A stretch of DNA of 64,000 nucleotides, taken from positions 62,001 through 126,000 of the forward strand of contig JAURHD010000002.1 in the NCBI GenBank assembly GCA_030833445.1, read 5' to 3'. Position 1 is the stretch's first letter; the number at the start of each line of letters is the position of its first letter. This DNA comes from Cephaloticoccus sp. (GTDB lineage Bacteria; Verrucomicrobiota; Verrucomicrobiia; Opitutales; Opitutaceae). The position numbers and the translations under genes were made by a program. The notes beneath the pieces are model-generated. The model did no database searches. It was given only the letters and a program-made list of their open reading frames with translations, and was not told where the DNA came from. Shown in pieces: positions 27,468 through 35,164 of the stretch.

Positions 27468-29702
27468 TCAACAACCGGTCGTTTCCATGGCGGCTTCCCG
27501 GCAGGCCTTGAGATCGAGCTTGCCCGTGCCGAGCACTGGAATCTTGTCCACCCGCCGGATTACCTTGGGCACCCATAAACTTGGCAACCCGGCCCCGAGT
27601 AATTTCTCCCGCAATTGGTCCGCCGTGATATCGGTCGTCGTTAACAACACGAGCGCCTCGCCTTTGGTTTCGTCCGGCACGCCCATCACCACGGCGCTAT
27701 AACCATCCTCGTCGTAGAGTTCAAACAGCTCCCCAATCCGTTGTTCAATCGTCCCGTGCGGCACCATCTCCCCACCAATCTTGGAAAAGCGGGATAGCCG
27801 GCCTTCGATGAACAAAAACCCTTCTTCATCCAGACGGCCCAAGTCACCGGTGACAAACCAACCGTCCTGAAAAGCCGCCTGGGTTTTTTCCGCATCGCCG
27901 AGGTAACCGCTGAATACGTTGGCGCCGCGGAACCACACAATCCCCGCCTCGCCCGCGGGCACTTCCTCGCCGGTTTCCGGATGCACGATCCGCGCCGTCA
28001 TGCCGGGCAGCAACCGGCCGACCGAACCGGCTTTCTTCCCCACCTGGGGTTCCGCCGTAAACGTCGTGATCGGTGGATGCGGCTGGTTGATGTTGCTGGC
28101 CGGGGTCGTTTCCGTGAGCCCGTAGCCCTGCATGATCTCCAGGTGGAACTGCTTCATGAAAGCCTCGTAGAGATCGTCCGGCAGTTTTTCCGCCCCGGTC
28201 ACGACGAGTTCCAGGGAGCGCAATTCACCCGGCTTCGCCTTGCGGAGGATCGGCCGCACAAAGGTCGGCGCGCCGATCAACACCGTGGCCGACTCCTCGT
28301 GGATGGCATCAATAATCTTCCGGGTATCGAGCGGACTCGGCACCGTGACCACCCGGCAACCGCGGATCAGCGGATACCACAGCGTGATGGTAAAACCGAA
28401 GGAGTGAAACACCGGCAGGCAACCCAACAAGGAACACCGCTCGGGCAGAATCGAAAGCGATGAAACCTGCGCACAATTCGCGAGAATATTGCGGTGTGAT
28501 AGCGCGACACCTTTCGGTTCTCCCGAACTGCCACTGGTGAACAGAAGTCCGGCCTCGCTGCGATCCCCAACGGTCGGCAGGCCGAGCATGGCGGGAATCA
28601 ATTGATTCGGCAGCACCCACGCGGCGATCAGCCAGGGCAAAATCGCCTTTTTGCCACCCATGGCTTCAATCTCCTTCCGCAGGTCCAAGGTGCGTTCCGG
28701 CCAAGGGAAGTTGGGCACCTTGGTTTTCATGATGTCGGCGCTGATCACGGTTTTCACCCCGCCGATCCGCATACTGACCTCGAGTGCCGATCGACCGGTG
28801 GTGAAATTGAGATTCACTGGAACCTTGCCCGCGCAGGCCACCGCCAGATTCGCAATAAAGGCTCCCGCTCCCGGTGGCAGCACAATCCCTACCCGGTGCT
28901 CCGGCACCGTTCGTTTAATGTGCCGCGATAGTGCGGCGGCGGCGGCCAACAGTTGACCGGCCTTGACTGGTTTTCGATCCGCGGTGCGATCGATAACTTG
29001 CAACCGAGCCGGCTGCTTGGCGAGGGACCGCACACACTCCCGAGCCAGATGCCGGCGCAAAACGGGTCGCTGTTCAAAGGCATCTGCACCGAGGTCCAAC
29101 ATCAGCTTGCGGGCGTGAGCGGGTTCAGCCTCCTCGGGGGTCATCGGCTTTCCAAATGCCACAAATATCGGCGTGGGCATCAGTCGCGGTGATTTCCACA
29201 AGTAAGTATTGCCGGCGAACGAAAAGACCGAGCCCCAGATGCCATCAATGAATGCCGGCACCACGGGCACGTTGGCTTTGCGAGCCAAGACCTCGAAACC
29301 GCGTTTGATGACCATCAGTTGACCGGTGCGCGATATCTGCCCCTCAGGAAACACCGCCACCACTTCGCCGGCCGCCAAGGCCCGGATGGCCTGACGCATG
29401 CCGTCGGAGGCGCTTTTACTCGAAATCCCGATCGCGCCACTCCAGCGGAAAACCAGGTCAAAAAACCAATGGGTCCGCAGCGCCTTGTGCCCCATGAAGC
29501 GAATCGGGCGCGGACAGGCCAGTTGCAACAGGACCGGGTCCACGTATGAAAGATGATTGGCAATGATCAGCACCCCGCCTTGCGCCGGTATATCCAAAGA
29601 ACCTGAGGAACGCACCCGATACAACAGCCGGGCAATCGTTGCCGCGATCAACTCTAGCGGACGAGGCAGATAGGAACGCTTGGGGTTTAGCGGGGAAAGC
29701 AT
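27468..29702 (-). CDS. Fused acyltransferase / acyl-CoA (acyl-ACP) synthetase, Aas-like
   Basis: A 744-residue two-domain lipid enzyme. The N-terminal PlsC-type acyltransferase (about 20-230) has the HX4D motif in NHLSYVDPVLL, plus FPEGQISR and VPVVPAFIDG. The C-terminal AMP-forming ligase (about 235-744) has the P-loop LLFTSGSSGEPKGVALSHRN, the GYGLTETTP motif and the hinge segment FVTGDLGRLDEEGF. This matches the Aas class that re-acylates lysophospholipids, but the multi-spanning transporter domain seen in some family members is absent. Four bases separate it from the sialidase-like gene. Activity on fatty acids is inferred from both domains; cytoplasmic face of the inner membrane expected. 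Confidence 0.88.
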   Translation of the reverse strand: MLSPLNPKRSYLPRPLELIAATIARLLYRVRSSGSLDIPAQGGVLIIANHLSYVDPVLLQLACPRPIRFMGHKALRTHWFFDLVFRWSGAIGISSKSASDGMRQAIRALAAGEVVAVFPEGQISRTGQLMVIKRGFEVLARKANVPVVPAFIDGIWGSVFSFAGNTYLWKSPRLMPTPIFVAFGKPMTPEEAEPAHARKLMLDLGADAFEQRPVLRRHLARECVRSLAKQPARLQVIDRTADRKPVKAGQLLAAAAALSRHIKRTVPEHRVGIVLPPGAGAFIANLAVACAGKVPVNLNFTTGRSALEVSMRIGGVKTVISADIMKTKVPNFPWPERTLDLRKEIEAMGGKKAILPWLIAAWVLPNQLIPAMLGLPTVGDRSEAGLLFTSGSSGEPKGVALSHRNILANCAQVSSLSILPERCSLLGCLPVFHSFGFTITLWYPLIRGCRVVTVPSPLDTRKIIDAIHEESATVLIGAPTFVRPILRKAKPGELRSLELVVTGAEKLPDDLYEAFMKQFHLEIMQGYGLTETTPASNINQPHPPITTFTAEPQVGKKAGSVGRLLPGMTARIVHPETGEEVPAGEAGIVWFRGANVFSGYLGDAEKTQAAFQDGWFVTGDLGRLDEEGFLFIEGRLSRFSKIGGEMVPHGTIEQRIGELFELYDEDGYSAVVMGVPDETKGEALVLLTTTDITADQLREKLLGAGLPSLWVPKVIRRVDKIPVLGTGKLDLKACREAAMETTGC

Positions 29703-29763: not shown

Positions 29764-30432
29764 CTAATCACGTGTAGGCTTCGGTCTAGCCTGAGACTGT
29801 TTCTGCCATTGCCGGAGGTCATGGGCCAAAGCCCCAAACCCACCGGGAAAATCCGCTTCCAACCTTCGTGCATCACCCCGATGACGCTGGACTTCGCGCA
29901 AGGCGCAATCGATCTCCCACTGCAACGAGGGACGCGTGGTGCCGTAGACCCGCTGCTTTAAATCCTTGCGTGAATACGGAGCCCGCCCGGCTTCCTGTCC
30001 CCGGGTCCATGCCTCCTCCGTTACGCTTTCATCCCGCCCGCACAAATACCATGCCTCAATTGCCGGCACGGCCAGCCCGACGCAGCGCATCACCCGGTCA
30101 CGACCGCGGGCCGGCGGGAGTCGTTTGGTCGCCCGGCGAAAAACCGCCCGCAATTGGCACAAGCGGCACTGCGGATGAAAATAATCCTCCGCCTCATGGG
30201 CCGGGGTGTGCACGACCGAGTCATCCGAGTCGACCACCACGATCAGCCCGTCCGCATCGGTTTTGAAATGCAGGTGCCGGACGATCGCTGGCAGCACTTG
30301 GGCAACATTGGGCCAGCCCCGCGCCCGCAAATGCGGATGCACCCGCTGGACCTCGGTTTGCAGAACGGCCTCGGCCAAGACCAGCACCCCGACTTCGTCC
30401 GCCGGTGATTCGCTCAGGAGTGCGAGTTTCAT
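29764..30432 (-). CDS. Uncharacterised TOPRIM-like acidic-motif protein, partner of ATPase
   Basis: A 222-residue protein of no named family I can confirm. It has a pattern like TOPRIM/DUF4276-type nucleases: an early acidic cluster (S7-E8-S-P-A-D12-E13), a strand ending in acidic residues (IVVVDSDD, with D68, D70, D71), and AVPAIEAWYLCGRD with E126, a segment typical of such proteins. C89 and C92 form a CxxC (PQCRLC) that may bind metal. The gene follows the AAA ATPase gene on the same strand, about 175 bases downstream, with a REP-like element between. I infer a nuclease-like partner, possibly in an antiphage pair; nothing in the sequence proves cleavage activity. Confidence 0.7.
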   Translation of the reverse strand: MKLALLSESPADEVGVLVLAEAVLQTEVQRVHPHLRARGWPNVAQVLPAIVRHLHFKTDADGLIVVVDSDDSVVHTPAHEAEDYFHPQCRLCQLRAVFRRATKRLPPARGRDRVMRCVGLAVPAIEAWYLCGRDESVTEEAWTRGQEAGRAPYSRKDLKQRVYGTTRPSLQWEIDCALREVQRHRGDARRLEADFPGGFGALAHDLRQWQKQSQARPKPTRD

Positions 30433-30469
30433 GCCGCGCTCCTCTGCCTGGGTTGGGCACCAATTTGTT

Positions 30470-30544
30470 GTAGGGCGGGGTCGCCTGACCCCGCCAACAA
30501 AAGCAAATCAATGCACAAGGCGGGATCAGGCGATCCCGCCCTAC
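30470..30544. repeat. REP-like paired hairpins, GTAG heads
   Basis: Left unit: GTAG head (30470-30473), stem GGCGGGGTC (30474-30482), loop GCCT, GACCCCGCC (30487-30495). After a 23-base spacer the mirrored right unit follows: GGCGGGATC (30519-30527), loop AGGC, GATCCCGCC (30532-30540), CTAC (30541-30544). Both units have a 4-base head and a 4-base GCCT loop when read outward-in, the layout of REP sequences mobilised by RAYT (REP-associated tyrosine transposase) proteins. No RAYT gene is in the window. It separates the ATPase and TOPRIM-like genes. Confidence 0.85.
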
Positions 30545-30607
30545 ATTTCTGCGACAAATACCCGCACGTCACCTGCCTCGCTGTCGGAATATTAATAAAT
30601 TCCTTCA

Positions 30608-31600
30608 TCATTCTTCGGGCACCCCACCCAAAATGCCGCTGAACCACAGGTCGCCCAACGACCCCTCGGCCAGGAGTTCCGGCAGGTCCTCGCGATCCGA
30701 CAATCGTTCGAAATGCGCCGCGTTGCCCACCTTGTGCGAGATGACGATTTCCTCGGGATGATCCCGGAACAGATCCAGCAGGTAGGGCGAATGCGTGGTC
30801 GCGATCACCTGCACCGGCGGACGCTTCAGTCCCGCGGTCTCGGGATAACTCAACCGGTAAAGCAGGTCGCGCACTTCGCGCAGCATCCGCGGATGGATGC
30901 CGCGGTCGATCTCCTCGATGCACACCACCGACGGCGGCTGCGGATGAAAGGCCAGCACCATCATGCCGAGGACGTAGAGCGTGCCTTGGGAAAGGTTGTC
31001 CGCCGTCACCTCGCCCGGTTCATCGCGCAGCTTCAAGGCGAGCTGCACGGATCCCTTCGCCGTGCGCGCAAAATTCATGCGACTGAATTCCGGCATGATC
31101 CGGAGCAACTCCTGCTCCAGCGCGGCAAAGGTCTCCGGATGTTGCGCGGCCAAGGTCGAGAGCACCACGGAGAGATTCGCGCCGTTGCTCACCAGCTCCA
31201 GGGTCGGCTTGTCCTCGCAGACCTCCGCCATGGCATAATGGTCAAACAGGTAGGCGCGAATGCCCCCGATGGCTTGCTCCACCGCCGCCCGACCGGACTC
31301 GCCGGCGGGACTGAACTCGATCCGGTCGCAAACGAGATCCGAGACACAAGACAGGCGCACGGTCACCTGCTCGTGTGGCGCGGCCAGTTGGAATTCGATA
31401 CGGGCGCCTTCGGATTGCGCTTCCCCTGGCGTCGCGTTCTTTCCGGTCTGGAGTCGCGCGAGCGTGCGCAGCCGCAGCAACGCTTGGATCAGGCTCGTCT
31501 TGCCGCTGCCATTGGGCCCCAACACGAGATTAAACGGCAGCAACGCAATCTGCGCATCCCGCAGGGCCTTGAAATTATGGAAGGTGACCGACGCAATCAC
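30608..31600 (-). CDS. AAA-type ABC/OLD-like ATPase (AAA_21 type)
   Basis: A 330-residue ATPase taken from the GTG at 31600 (VIASVTFHNFKALRDAQ), the usual first strand of AAA_21/RecF-like ATPases; the frame is open 18 codons further from a TTG. Walker A is GPNGSGKTS (28-36). The ABC signature is NLSQGTL (202-208), Walker B is VVCIEEID (225-232) with two acidic residues, and the H-loop is ATTHSPY (267-273). There is no long coiled coil, so it is closer to the short OLD/AAA15-21 ATPases than to SMC or RecN. A TOPRIM-like gene lies downstream on the same strand. Such ATPase/TOPRIM pairs are known in antiphage systems; here the link is inferred. Confidence 0.88.
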   Translation of the reverse strand: MIASVTFHNFKALRDAQIALLPFNLVLGPNGSGKTSLIQALLRLRTLARLQTGKNATPGEAQSEGARIEFQLAAPHEQVTVRLSCVSDLVCDRIEFSPAGESGRAAVEQAIGGIRAYLFDHYAMAEVCEDKPTLELVSNGANLSVVLSTLAAQHPETFAALEQELLRIMPEFSRMNFARTAKGSVQLALKLRDEPGEVTADNLSQGTLYVLGMMVLAFHPQPPSVVCIEEIDRGIHPRMLREVRDLLYRLSYPETAGLKRPPVQVIATTHSPYLLDLFRDHPEEIVISHKVGNAAHFERLSDREDLPELLAEGSLGDLWFSGILGGVPEE

Positions 31601-32078: not shown

Positions 32079-35000
32079 TCACTTCCCCAGCAACCGATTG
32101 AGCAAGTCGCTCGCGCCGCCACTCTCCATCGCGACTTTTACGAGGGCATTCTTGAGTTCCGAAGTATCGGGCTTCAGCAGCGTGCCGGTGACCCGCAGTG
32201 GCAGCGTGCAGACGGCGTAACCCAAATCATCCTTCTCGGTGGCAAGCAGGTTCAAATAGCGCAATACATCCGCGGTGCGTCCCCGGGCCTTCATTTCCAA
32301 GGCCAGGTTCAGTGGTTGGTTCATAAAGTCCAAGTCGTCCTGATAGCGCAACTGCCCGTCTCCGCTCAGTCGCATCTCAGGTGCGATCAGCGCGAATTCC
32401 CGCAAATTCGTGTTGAGGTCCGCATCCCGGTTCACCGCGACATTCAATTGGTCATACTTGATTGCGGTCAGGAGTTGCGACAGCTCTGCCACCGCCTGTG
32501 CTTTGCTGGCGAGCCCGGTAACATCCTTGTTGATGCCGAGGGCGCCGACCACGTTGCCTAAGAATGCCCCTACTGCGGCCACCTTGCCCACATGCTCCAC
32601 CTGATTCGAAACATTGGCGGAGAGTAACCGGAACACTCCGGCGGTGCTGGTCAGTTTCACATCCCCGCCGATATTGGCGGCGAGTTTTTCCAGATCGCGG
32701 CCTTGGGAAGTCAGGGTGGAGTTTAAATTAAAACGGCCGTCAATCTGCGCCGGATTACGGGCATTATAGGCCTTGAAGAAAGGGGCCGAATCAAACTCCC
32801 GGGCAGCCAGTTCGGTCCGCAAAGCATAGGGCGTTTTCATTTCCGGCACATAGGTTAGCGCCCCATCCAATTTCATTGCGCCCTGATTACCGATGCCGGC
32901 ATGCACGTTATCTAAAGTCAGCGCGCCTTCGTTGATCCGCACCGCGCCGGCCACATCTTTGAGTTCAAAATACTCATCGTAATGCAACTGGGTAATCGCG
33001 AGGTCGATCACCCCACTGAGACCTGCCCAGAAAGGGGCATCTACCTCCGGAGCCGCCGCTTCCTTGAGCGTAGTGGGCACCGCGGCCAGCCCGGCCAACA
33101 ACTGCATATCGGACAGATAGATCTTCTTGCCGTTCAACTGACCGGCAAGGTGATAACCCGCAGCTTGAGGAGTCAGTGTCCCCTTGATTCCGGGATCGGA
33201 TACCCGTGGGCCCATGGTCATCTGTAAAGGCAGGTTGAAGGCGATCTCCCCATTCGCGCCCAAACCCGCCTGAATCGAACCCGCAATGTTCGGCAGGACC
33301 GTGCCAGCCACATCCGCCAGCTCACTCAAGCTGAATTCACCCTGCACTTCGCTGGCCTCACTCAAAGTCAGCAGGATGTCCGCCGCGAATTTACCTTTCG
33401 ATACGGCAACCTCGTCGCGCAGTATCGGTTGCCGCAAGAGTGGAACCAATCCGACCTGAAGCGAAACTGAGGCTTTGATCGGCTGATCTGAACCGATCAA
33501 TTGACCGGCCTTCAGTTTCAGGGTCGCGATGTTCGCACCGGCACTGTCCACTTTCAGATTGTCCAGTGCCACTTGCCAGCCACTAGGGCCATATTCGGCC
33601 AGCAGACACAGCGTAAGATCCAGTGCTTCAGCCAGCGCCTGCCCCTCGTGGGATACGGAGAGATTGCCGATGCGCAGACCCTCAACCGTGTGCACCTCTA
33701 CCCCGCCATCCCGCGCACTGGCGACGAGTCGACCATTGATCCGCCCTTGCTGGAGGGCCACCGGATCCACCAAAGGCCCCACCCACTCAACCGGCAGGTC
33801 TTGAACCTCCACGGCGAGCAAATCCGCCGTCGGATCTGCCACCTTCATTTCGCCACTCGCCAGATTGAATTCGAAAGCTTGCAGCGCGGCGATCCCGAGC
33901 ACCGGCTGCGGGTGGTTGATATCAATTTTCAATTTATCCACCCGGCTGACTGCATCCATCTGGGTCAGATCAAACTCACTGAAAAGCGTCACCGCCCCGA
34001 CTTCGGCCAAGGAAGGAATAACCACTTCCAAGCGATCCAAAGTCGTCTTGATCCGGCCGGCCGTGTGAATTTCCGCAAACAGCGTGTCCGTTTCAAACAT
34101 CCCTGCGCCGACCGCTTCAAAGGTGGGCAAAGACCGGCCCAAGACAAACGGAGCCACATCCGTGTCGCGCATATCCACCCGCCAAACCCCGCCAAAGCGG
34201 GAGGCGTTCTCCGGCAGATTGGCCTGCACATCCAGCAGTCGCTTCCCGACAGTCTGCAGGGTCAGCGCATAATCTTCGCCGCCATTGATTTTGGCGGCCG
34301 ATAGTTCGGCACTCAGCTGCACCCCTTGCGGGAATGCCCCTCCCACCGCCTGCGAATTCAAATCGGCGGAAAATTTGGCGAAAGTCCGGGGCGAATCCAT
34401 CAGGGCACTTACGGTTCCACCGACTTTCAAACGGTCCACCGGACCGCCCATACCGGTCAGATCAGTCTGAGCATCGATATTGAAGACGCCATTATGACCG
34501 GCCTGAAGTCCACCCCCAAGCAGACTTACCCGCAGCGTGACTGGTTTGTTGCCCGGTCCAGCCGGAACGATGACCTCACCTTCAAGAATGGCCCCATCAA
34601 GCGAAAGATCGACCGGCAACTCAAGTTGGGCAAACACGCCGGCAAATGCATCACTAAGGGACGGGACGGGAACGGCGGCAGCATGTGCGGTGGAGATAAG
34701 GGAAAAATCCGCACGGTGAGCCGCATTGGCTGCGGTTTTGGTCACCTTCGGAGTATAGCGTGTAAGATCAAGGGTCCACCCCCGGGCCACCAGTTTAGTG
34801 ATCGCAACTTCGTGTTTCCAGGCAGCGGCGACCACGGGAAAGTCGGCCTGGAGTTGCGGCAAAGTCAGCACGGCGCCCGACAGTTCAAATTTGCCCTGCT
34901 CAAGATTCAGCTGGTGCCAGCCAACCCTCACCTGCCCGATCTCGGCGCCGAGTTCAGGTTGATTGGCTAAAATCTTGCGGGCCACCCATGTCTGCACCGG

Positions 35001-35087
35001 CGAGGTCATCGCCAGAACCAACAGGATGAGCAGGGCCGAGCAGAGTCCGCCCAGCACCCAAACCAGTTTTTTTAGCCCGGCTTTCAT
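32079..35087 (-). CDS. AsmA-like/DUF748-type envelope protein
   Basis: A 1002-residue protein starting MKAGLKKLVWVLGGLCSALLIL (an ATG three codons upstream is also possible). One N-terminal TM anchors it in the inner membrane, with the rest in the periplasm. The repeating beta-rich pattern fits AsmA-like and DUF748-type proteins, thought to bridge lipids between membranes. The C-terminal region resembles AsmA C-terminal domains: LEKLAANIGGDVKLTSTAGVF, ALIAPEMRLSGDGQLRYQDD and VCTLPLRVTGTLLKPD. It lies 77 bases downstream of the TolC-like gene, probably in or near that transcript. A lipid-transport role is inferred from family only. Confidence 0.82.
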   Translation of the reverse strand: MKAGLKKLVWVLGGLCSALLILLVLAMTSPVQTWVARKILANQPELGAEIGQVRVGWHQLNLEQGKFELSGAVLTLPQLQADFPVVAAAWKHEVAITKLVARGWTLDLTRYTPKVTKTAANAAHRADFSLISTAHAAAVPVPSLSDAFAGVFAQLELPVDLSLDGAILEGEVIVPAGPGNKPVTLRVSLLGGGLQAGHNGVFNIDAQTDLTGMGGPVDRLKVGGTVSALMDSPRTFAKFSADLNSQAVGGAFPQGVQLSAELSAAKINGGEDYALTLQTVGKRLLDVQANLPENASRFGGVWRVDMRDTDVAPFVLGRSLPTFEAVGAGMFETDTLFAEIHTAGRIKTTLDRLEVVIPSLAEVGAVTLFSEFDLTQMDAVSRVDKLKIDINHPQPVLGIAALQAFEFNLASGEMKVADPTADLLAVEVQDLPVEWVGPLVDPVALQQGRINGRLVASARDGGVEVHTVEGLRIGNLSVSHEGQALAEALDLTLCLLAEYGPSGWQVALDNLKVDSAGANIATLKLKAGQLIGSDQPIKASVSLQVGLVPLLRQPILRDEVAVSKGKFAADILLTLSEASEVQGEFSLSELADVAGTVLPNIAGSIQAGLGANGEIAFNLPLQMTMGPRVSDPGIKGTLTPQAAGYHLAGQLNGKKIYLSDMQLLAGLAAVPTTLKEAAAPEVDAPFWAGLSGVIDLAITQLHYDEYFELKDVAGAVRINEGALTLDNVHAGIGNQGAMKLDGALTYVPEMKTPYALRTELAAREFDSAPFFKAYNARNPAQIDGRFNLNSTLTSQGRDLEKLAANIGGDVKLTSTAGVFRLLSANVSNQVEHVGKVAAVGAFLGNVVGALGINKDVTGLASKAQAVAELSQLLTAIKYDQLNVAVNRDADLNTNLREFALIAPEMRLSGDGQLRYQDDLDFMNQPLNLALEMKARGRTADVLRYLNLLATEKDDLGYAVCTLPLRVTGTLLKPDTSELKNALVKVAMESGGASDLLNRLLGK

Positions 35088-35164
35088 GTTTGGCAAAAAG
35101 ACACCGCGAAACTCCGTGAGTTGCGGTATCCGGCATTTTATTCCTATGACGCCGGTTCGGGACT

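Follow-up and report, generated by a model that had tools for sequence, protein, structure and literature searches.

Does the two-gene locus at 29764-31600 of a Cephaloticoccus genome (Verrucomicrobiota; Opitutaceae) encode a mobile antiphage system, or has an ATPase and nuclease pair become a resident part of the chromosome? A pair with defence-type anatomy, yet with a vertical and locus-fixed pattern of inheritance, offers a natural case in which to ask how modules of this kind settle in a chromosome, and whether once settled they keep a defence role or take a cellular one; genomes with an empty site are the matched natural controls. We studied this pair in a window of 64,000 nucleotides (GCA_030833445.1, contig JAURHD010000002.1, positions 62,001 to 126,000), the source genome being 2.9 Mb in 72 contigs. 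A sequence-only reading had proposed a candidate ATPase plus TOPRIM-like system at this place. Translation confirmed that both open reading frames lie there on the same (minus) strand, and that the end coordinate 31600 is exact, as the GTG at this position, which was picked as the start from the alignment with relatives, gives an ATPase of 330 aa. The features are as follows.

27468..29702, minus strand: downstream neighbour and conserved locus marker, acyltransferase plus AMP-binding ligase
29764..30432, minus strand: gene B, RloB/HEC-01B-like putative Toprim nuclease, 222 aa
30433..30607, no strand: A-B intergenic gap of 175 bp, holding an inverted repeat of 27 nt (arms 30469-30495, 30519-30545)
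30608..31600, minus strand: gene A, OLD/PARIS-type ABC ATPase, 330 aa, GTG start at 31600
32079..35096, minus strand: upstream neighbour and conserved locus marker, 1005-aa protein after TolC/RND efflux genes, no Pfam match

The ATPase and its pairing with gene B

Gene A carries each of the motifs originally described for it, namely a Walker A (GPNGSGKT), an LSQGT signature, a Walker B with EE and an H-loop, and it also has a D-loop. The ATPase motifs were kept across 43 aligned sequences, with H271 (numbered in an alignment that begins one codon upstream of the GTG) in at least 90% of them. Gene A matched Pfam AAA_21 at 4.6e-28, with 99.6 bits against a cut-off of 27, and its best PADLOC model was HEC-01A (3.2e-40), followed by PDC-M07A, AriA (6.7e-28), mad3 (4.7e-22) and AbiLi (1.6e-19). 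NCBIfam MAD3 was matched at 3.3e-24, yet its 85.8 bits fall far below the cut-off of 420. When the A family profile was compared with solved chains, Thermus OLD (6p74) was the best match at 6.7e-14, over residues 2-83 alone, and the Foldseek matches of the AlphaFold (AF2) model of A (pLDDT 91.5) were PtuA, Rad50 and SMC heads. On these motifs and profile matches, gene A is an OLD/PARIS-type ABC ATPase.

Adjacency of the two genes in relatives had been set beforehand as a test of the pairing. We used 49 loci from a species-genome collection, with the search confined to places matching short peptide patterns, and found A directly upstream of B in 48 of them; the remaining locus, L048, is cut by a contig end. 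Four-base overlaps between A and B were observed in 36 of the 48 loci (ATGA, or GTGA in L045 and L049), and a single-base overlap in one. Because the four-base overlap is shared by all six copies from other phyla, translational coupling of A and B is probably ancestral.

A survey of 200 Opitutaceae genomes identified B in 127 and A in 130. Four genomes gave weak A matches without B (G077, G108, G155 and G178; E 2e-14 to 9e-22), and the remaining 126 genomes with A all carried B. Among the 127 B-positive genomes, 126 had a strong A match, and the lone B without A, in G047, is a fragment of 100 residues. Where both genes were present they were adjacent on one contig, as read by eye from the tables, save in G121, where A and B fall on separate contigs. 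A joint decay of A and B in G045 was considered and dropped, as the TGA reported there is the normal end of B by translation and the three pieces of A lie in a single open frame.

Gene B and the Toprim question

Taken alone, the window B protein had no match in Pfam, NCBIfam, PADLOC or PDB. Its acidic positions, to which attention had been drawn from the sequence, are conserved in an alignment of 49 sequences: E8, D12, E13, D68 and E126 in all 49, D70 in 47 (N in the other two) and D71 in 46. The CxxC was borne out as well, with C89 and C92 each kept in 48 of the 49 sequences. S9, H75, A124, W128 and K159 are likewise invariant, and H79 is kept in 46.

The B family was compared with known families by profile. 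At E<=1, 31 of the 49 members, the window member not among them, matched the HEC-01B profile PDLC04202 (best 9e-6), and four matched mad4 weakly (best 0.0065). The PDLC04202 match in L043, L046 and L050 spans residues 1 to about 130, the stretch of the catalytic motifs. One member of the 49, L046, matched RloB (PF13707) at 7.3e-7, with 30.0 bits just under the cut-off of 31.5; window B reached no Pfam family, RloB included. We also ran the B family HMM over 2030 ORFs and found that, after 11 true orthologues, DUF4276, RloB and HEC-01B genes were four of the five best distinct ORFs, at E-values (0.23 to 3.1) that are weak; the majority of the other Toprim-family ORFs in the set did not rise in the ranking. 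Alignment of the B family by hhalign with small DUF4276, RloB and HEC-01B alignments gave a probability of 2–6%, and its motif alignment is no more than suggestive. Membership of B in DUF4276 or RloB was dropped, since the window protein falls below the Pfam models, and a distant kinship was kept. PARIS was also dropped as a family name: the 10 PADLOC families matched by the 49 B sequences (E<=1; sequence profiles alone) include no AriB model, and the links of B run to HEC-01B, mad4 and, in Pfam, RloB, which leaves PARIS, a known module to which the locus had been compared, without support. We take the AriB partner to be DUF4435-type.

The AF2 model of B is confident (pLDDT 90.9, pTM 0.87). 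When this model was searched with Foldseek against solved structures, no chain reached E<=0.001, and lumazine synthase and other unrelated folds took the top rows. When the Foldseek candidates were examined again, the two best chains were PH0156 (2p62; Z 7.5) and the OLD Toprim of 6p74 (residues 371–525; Z 7.3, rmsd 3.9, 133 aligned). This is weak evidence, since many lumazine synthases stand just under OLD with Z up to 6.9, and Z 7.3-7.5 is a range also reached by models without a clear match. AriB and RNase M5 were absent among the 50 matches listed in the structure comparison, which excludes nothing. The best viral model was an RloB-like protein (E 4.2e-3, prob 0.99). Solved structures searched by sequence gave no match to B, and with the B profile an ARF1 row alone (E 1.4).

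The metal ligands of OLD, as published (PMC7049728), are E377/D381, D431/D433 and E480, together with the S478/T506 position. Residues of B match these in order and spacing, with E8/D12 (+4), D68/D70 (+2) and E126 against E377/D381 (+4), D431/D433 (+2) and E480. The S/T that stands before the metal-B glutamate in OLD (S478/T506 position, PMC7049728) is A124 in B, in 49 of 49 sequences. Around E126, the P-A-I-E-A-W of B resembles the P-x-F-E-x-W of 9 of the 11 RloB proteins compared.

Might B instead have a different alpha/beta fold, or regulate A without being catalytically active? The Foldseek search without a significant match, A124 in place of the S/T ligand and a D70 that is not invariant are in line with such a B. 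However, E8, D12, D68 and E126 are invariant in the 49 sequences, and the best family-HMM ORFs past the orthologues are mostly Toprim-family genes; we regard such a B as improbable. The evidence for a Toprim is cumulative, with no single item strong, and the reading that fits the B family best, with moderate confidence, is that of a divergent Toprim of RloB/HEC-01B type. RloB and HEC-01B are its distant relatives, and B itself lies outside every curated family tested. Taken together, the pairing in the proposed ATPase plus TOPRIM-like system stood in 48 of the 49 loci, and its Toprim part gained moderate support from the profile links, the residue spacing and the AF2 model.

Distribution, locus and inheritance

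The B-positive Opitutaceae genomes represent 37 of 49 genera and carry one copy each, the exception being G190, in which the gene is broken across contigs; in 73 of the 200 genomes the pair was not found. A phylum-wide draw of 387 genomes gave 27 positives, all of them among the 36 Opitutaceae genomes of the draw, and B was found in none of its 351 Verrucomicrobiota genomes outside the family (up to 7 candidates scored per genome). Six divergent copies, 38–47% identical, were found in Acidobacteriota, Planctomycetota and Armatimonadota. No relative of B was identified in 72,556 plasmid and 50,697 phage records, nor in viral contigs by a pattern-limited scan with the B alignment. The ordinary relatives are patchy in the phylum, HEC-01B being found in 5 of 145 genomes, DUF4276 in 10 of 115 and RloB in 18 of 115, and the listed Opitutaceae genomes of those draws included no positives (0/15, 0/11 and 0/11, respectively).

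In many Opitutaceae the pair lies between a block of MFP, RND, TolC and 1005-aa protein genes and the acyltransferase–AMP-ligase gene, and in several genera other genes intervene at this locus. We take the 1005-aa protein (32079-35096) to be AsmA-like, by impression. Twenty pair-less genomes were searched, 18 of them had a match to the downstream gene, and we examined the 12 in which this match reached 54% identity or more. In 11 of these 12 the AsmA-like gene stays near the downstream gene and both A and B are absent: seven have an empty site of less than 300 bp between the flanks (L120, L121, L123, L126, L128, L130 and L131), and in four the flanks are 0.6 to 4 kb apart with other DNA between them (L122, L124, L125 and L127). 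Synteny is lost in the twelfth, L129. Because the pair is repeatedly absent with its flanks intact, it is not essential but dispensable. On the tree of the downstream gene the presence of the pair changes 11 times, one change probably being due to a mislabelled L048, which leaves about ten; the pair-less genomes on this tree were hand-picked, and the count cannot tell gain from loss. Most simply, these changes would be losses rather than gains.

The 1005-aa protein is fast evolving, with a median identity of 34% in 23 loci, and is found at a conserved place by the efflux genes. In L133 and L134, which belong to one genus, several kb of extra genes lie between the 1005-aa homologue and A, and these include, by impression, an ABC transporter ATP-binding protein and a periplasmic binding protein.

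We compared the history of the pair with that of its neighbours. The trees of B and the downstream gene have 15 of 37 splits in common, against a maximum of 2 in 500 shuffles, and the same comparison gave 13 common splits for A and the downstream gene and 14 for A and B. In a set of 19 taxa, B agrees with two neighbours in 8 and 7 of 16 splits, and these neighbours agree mutually in 4. Compared with the window across 41 loci, B has a median identity of 67.5%, the downstream gene 66.9% and A 55.2%. In eight close pairs, dN/dS spans 0.04–0.16 both for B and for the neighbour, and 0.06–0.20 for A, and the dN of B is above that of the neighbour in seven pairs and below that of A in all eight; tree length is 14.4 for A versus 9.9 for B. 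No internal stop was found in any of the 127 B genes. By these sequence measures, B appears to be conserved nearly as well as the neighbouring metabolic gene. We favour the reading that the pair is a vertically inherited, often-lost, resident and non-mobile chromosomal ATPase–Toprim module in Opitutaceae.

The surrounding genes were examined for links to defence. Among 10 window neighbours, Pfam identified an acyltransferase–AMP ligase, BNR, PhyH, outer-membrane efflux, an AcrB-type pump, a MarR regulator and transketolase, with three unmatched, and the sole PADLOC match was the MarR regulator, which cross-matched a CARF model at 1.7e-6. Ten genes near four non-Opitutaceae copies were metabolic or envelope genes plus a beta-CASP metallo-hydrolase, and the sole PADLOC match there was a MoaA-type radical SAM enzyme cross-matching viperin (pVip). 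No defence neighbours were seen outside Opitutaceae among these 10 of the 31 listed ORFs, scanned around four of the six copies (L045 and L050 left out); the 31 are ORFs of at least 100 aa with A and B omitted, many of which are perhaps not genes. Over the 20 neighbours scanned in the window and near the other-phylum copies, no defence genes were identified. A defence-island role had been entertained for the pair, and it fits poorly with a locus that is fixed and vertical in Opitutaceae, with ordinary neighbours among those scanned and with plasmid or phage copies not found.

A proposed mechanism and possible roles

We lean towards reading the pair as a two-protein ATP-gated nuclease resident in Opitutaceae, formed by the ABC-type ATPase A and the divergent Toprim nuclease B. 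The pair is likened to an ATP-gated Toprim nuclease because AriA is described as holding AriB until triggered (PMC12409363) and AAA:TOPRIM_OLD/RloB pairs are reported as validated toxin–antitoxin pairs, likened to AbiL (PMC10440598). According to this model, A, which is OLD/PtuA/AriA-like, likely oligomerises and senses the nucleic-acid or nucleotide state. B would use a two-metal site made of E8/D12, D68/D70 and E126 for a predicted nuclease activity, with K159 perhaps as a basic residue, and H75/H79-C89/C92 would form a putative family-specific metal knuckle. A would keep B inactive and then release or license it to cut DNA or RNA. The Opitutaceae module would be a resident chromosomal asset at one locus, inherited vertically and lost many times.

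Several known systems resemble this arrangement. HEC-01, a PADLOC candidate two-gene system of HEC-01A and HEC-01B, likewise joins an ATPase to an RloB/DUF4276-like partner and gives the best PADLOC match both of A and of the B family members. However, window B misses the HEC-01B models, B carries the H/H-C/C stretch, whose CxxC is absent there in the five HEC-01B proteins compared, and HEC-01 is patchy whereas the Opitutaceae pair is vertical and locus-fixed. PARIS (AriA/AriB) likewise sets an ABC ATPase beside a separate Toprim protein, a putative one in our pair, and A matches the AriA profile, but no AriB model matches B and no prophage or satellite genes were found among the neighbours scanned. 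AbiL (AbiLi/AbiLii) and MADS mad3/mad4 are also pairs of an ATPase with an RloB/Toprim protein, with profile matches to AbiLi and mad3; unlike in MADS, no methylation genes were found among the neighbours scanned, and the mad4 matches to B are weak. The OLD-family nucleases (Thermus OLD, Gabija GajA and Cran1) have an ATPase that is alike by sequence (6p74) and a Toprim whose catalytic residues resemble those proposed for B in order and spacing; here the two parts are split into two proteins.

Cran1, an OLD-family protein of archaea, resisted deletion and has a tree in agreement with that of the species; the pair resembles it in vertical inheritance, but is bacterial and often absent. The Cran1 report (PMC12796447) states that the OLD-family enzymes characterised earlier were all tied to antiviral defence. 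A maintenance role has been proposed for Cran1, which shows that a vertically inherited ATPase-nuclease of the OLD family can have a function other than defence. Cran1 in archaea apart, we found no published description of such a resident pair among the matches listed in a literature that leaves aside most subscription papers and all bioRxiv preprints.

Two readings of the role, resident defence and domesticated maintenance, do not compete with the biochemical statement of an ATP-gated nuclease. It is quite possible, if short of probable, that the pair provides a chromosomally fixed defence of the abortive-infection or toxin–antitoxin type, in which A holds a toxic Toprim nuclease B that, on the pattern of PARIS and AbiL, is freed when a phage infects. 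The nearest profile relatives are candidate defence genes, and there are published precedents in the AAA:TOPRIM_OLD/RloB toxin–antitoxin pairs (PMC10440598) and in the hold-and-trigger behaviour of AriA/AriB (PMC12409363). The pair is also dispensable, as its absence from 73 of 200 genomes and the empty sites indicate, and A evolves faster than B, as a sensor might, both in tree length and in dN in all eight close pairs. Against resident defence are the lack of defence genes among the 20 neighbours scanned, the plasmid and phage copies that were looked for and not found, and a tree and constraint that resemble those of ordinary neighbours. Vertical inheritance at a shared locus in single copy and under strong purifying selection, together with 127 of 127 B genes free of internal stops, would suit a domesticated enzyme recruited into chromosome or RNA maintenance, for which Cran1 is a precedent outside defence (PMC12796447); we regard this second role as a tentative possibility. 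The recurrent absence of the pair, with about ten changes on the neighbour tree (hand-picked negatives), indicates a non-essential function, and the genes around it serve efflux and lipid functions instead of replication or repair. The original suggestion of a housekeeping pair was half right, the part that failed being contradicted by the 73 of 200 Opitutaceae genomes in which the pair was not found.

The gene architecture and profile similarity would also fit an ordinary mobile antiphage system of PARIS or HEC-01 type in a defence island. Such a system is very improbable here, as the pair occupies a shared locus, mobile copies were not found, and its distribution is unlike that of the patchy HEC-01B, DUF4276 and RloB relatives in the phylum. 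A more specific proposal strikes us as rather unlikely: the pair would be the bacterial equivalent of Cran1, an OLD/RloB-type ATPase-Toprim nuclease divided over two proteins and furnished with an added zinc knuckle, which passed from a defence ancestor to a vertically inherited chromosome- or RNA-maintenance role.

Finally, the window junction differs from that of most relatives in having a 175-bp gap with an inverted repeat where they have a four-base overlap. The repeat at 30469-30545 consists of two 27-nt arms that are 93% complementary and 23 nt apart. Its half-sites number 17 in the genome (up to 3 mismatches), against 0 for a reversed control pattern, and the repeat appears to be a member of a REP-like repeat family. 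A-B gaps of 90–266 nt were observed in 7 of 48 loci, and inverted repeats, of several different sequences, in six of these seven (L008, L010, L017, L023, L030 and L033; folded without a shuffle control). The A-B junction may be a place where palindromes have inserted repeatedly.
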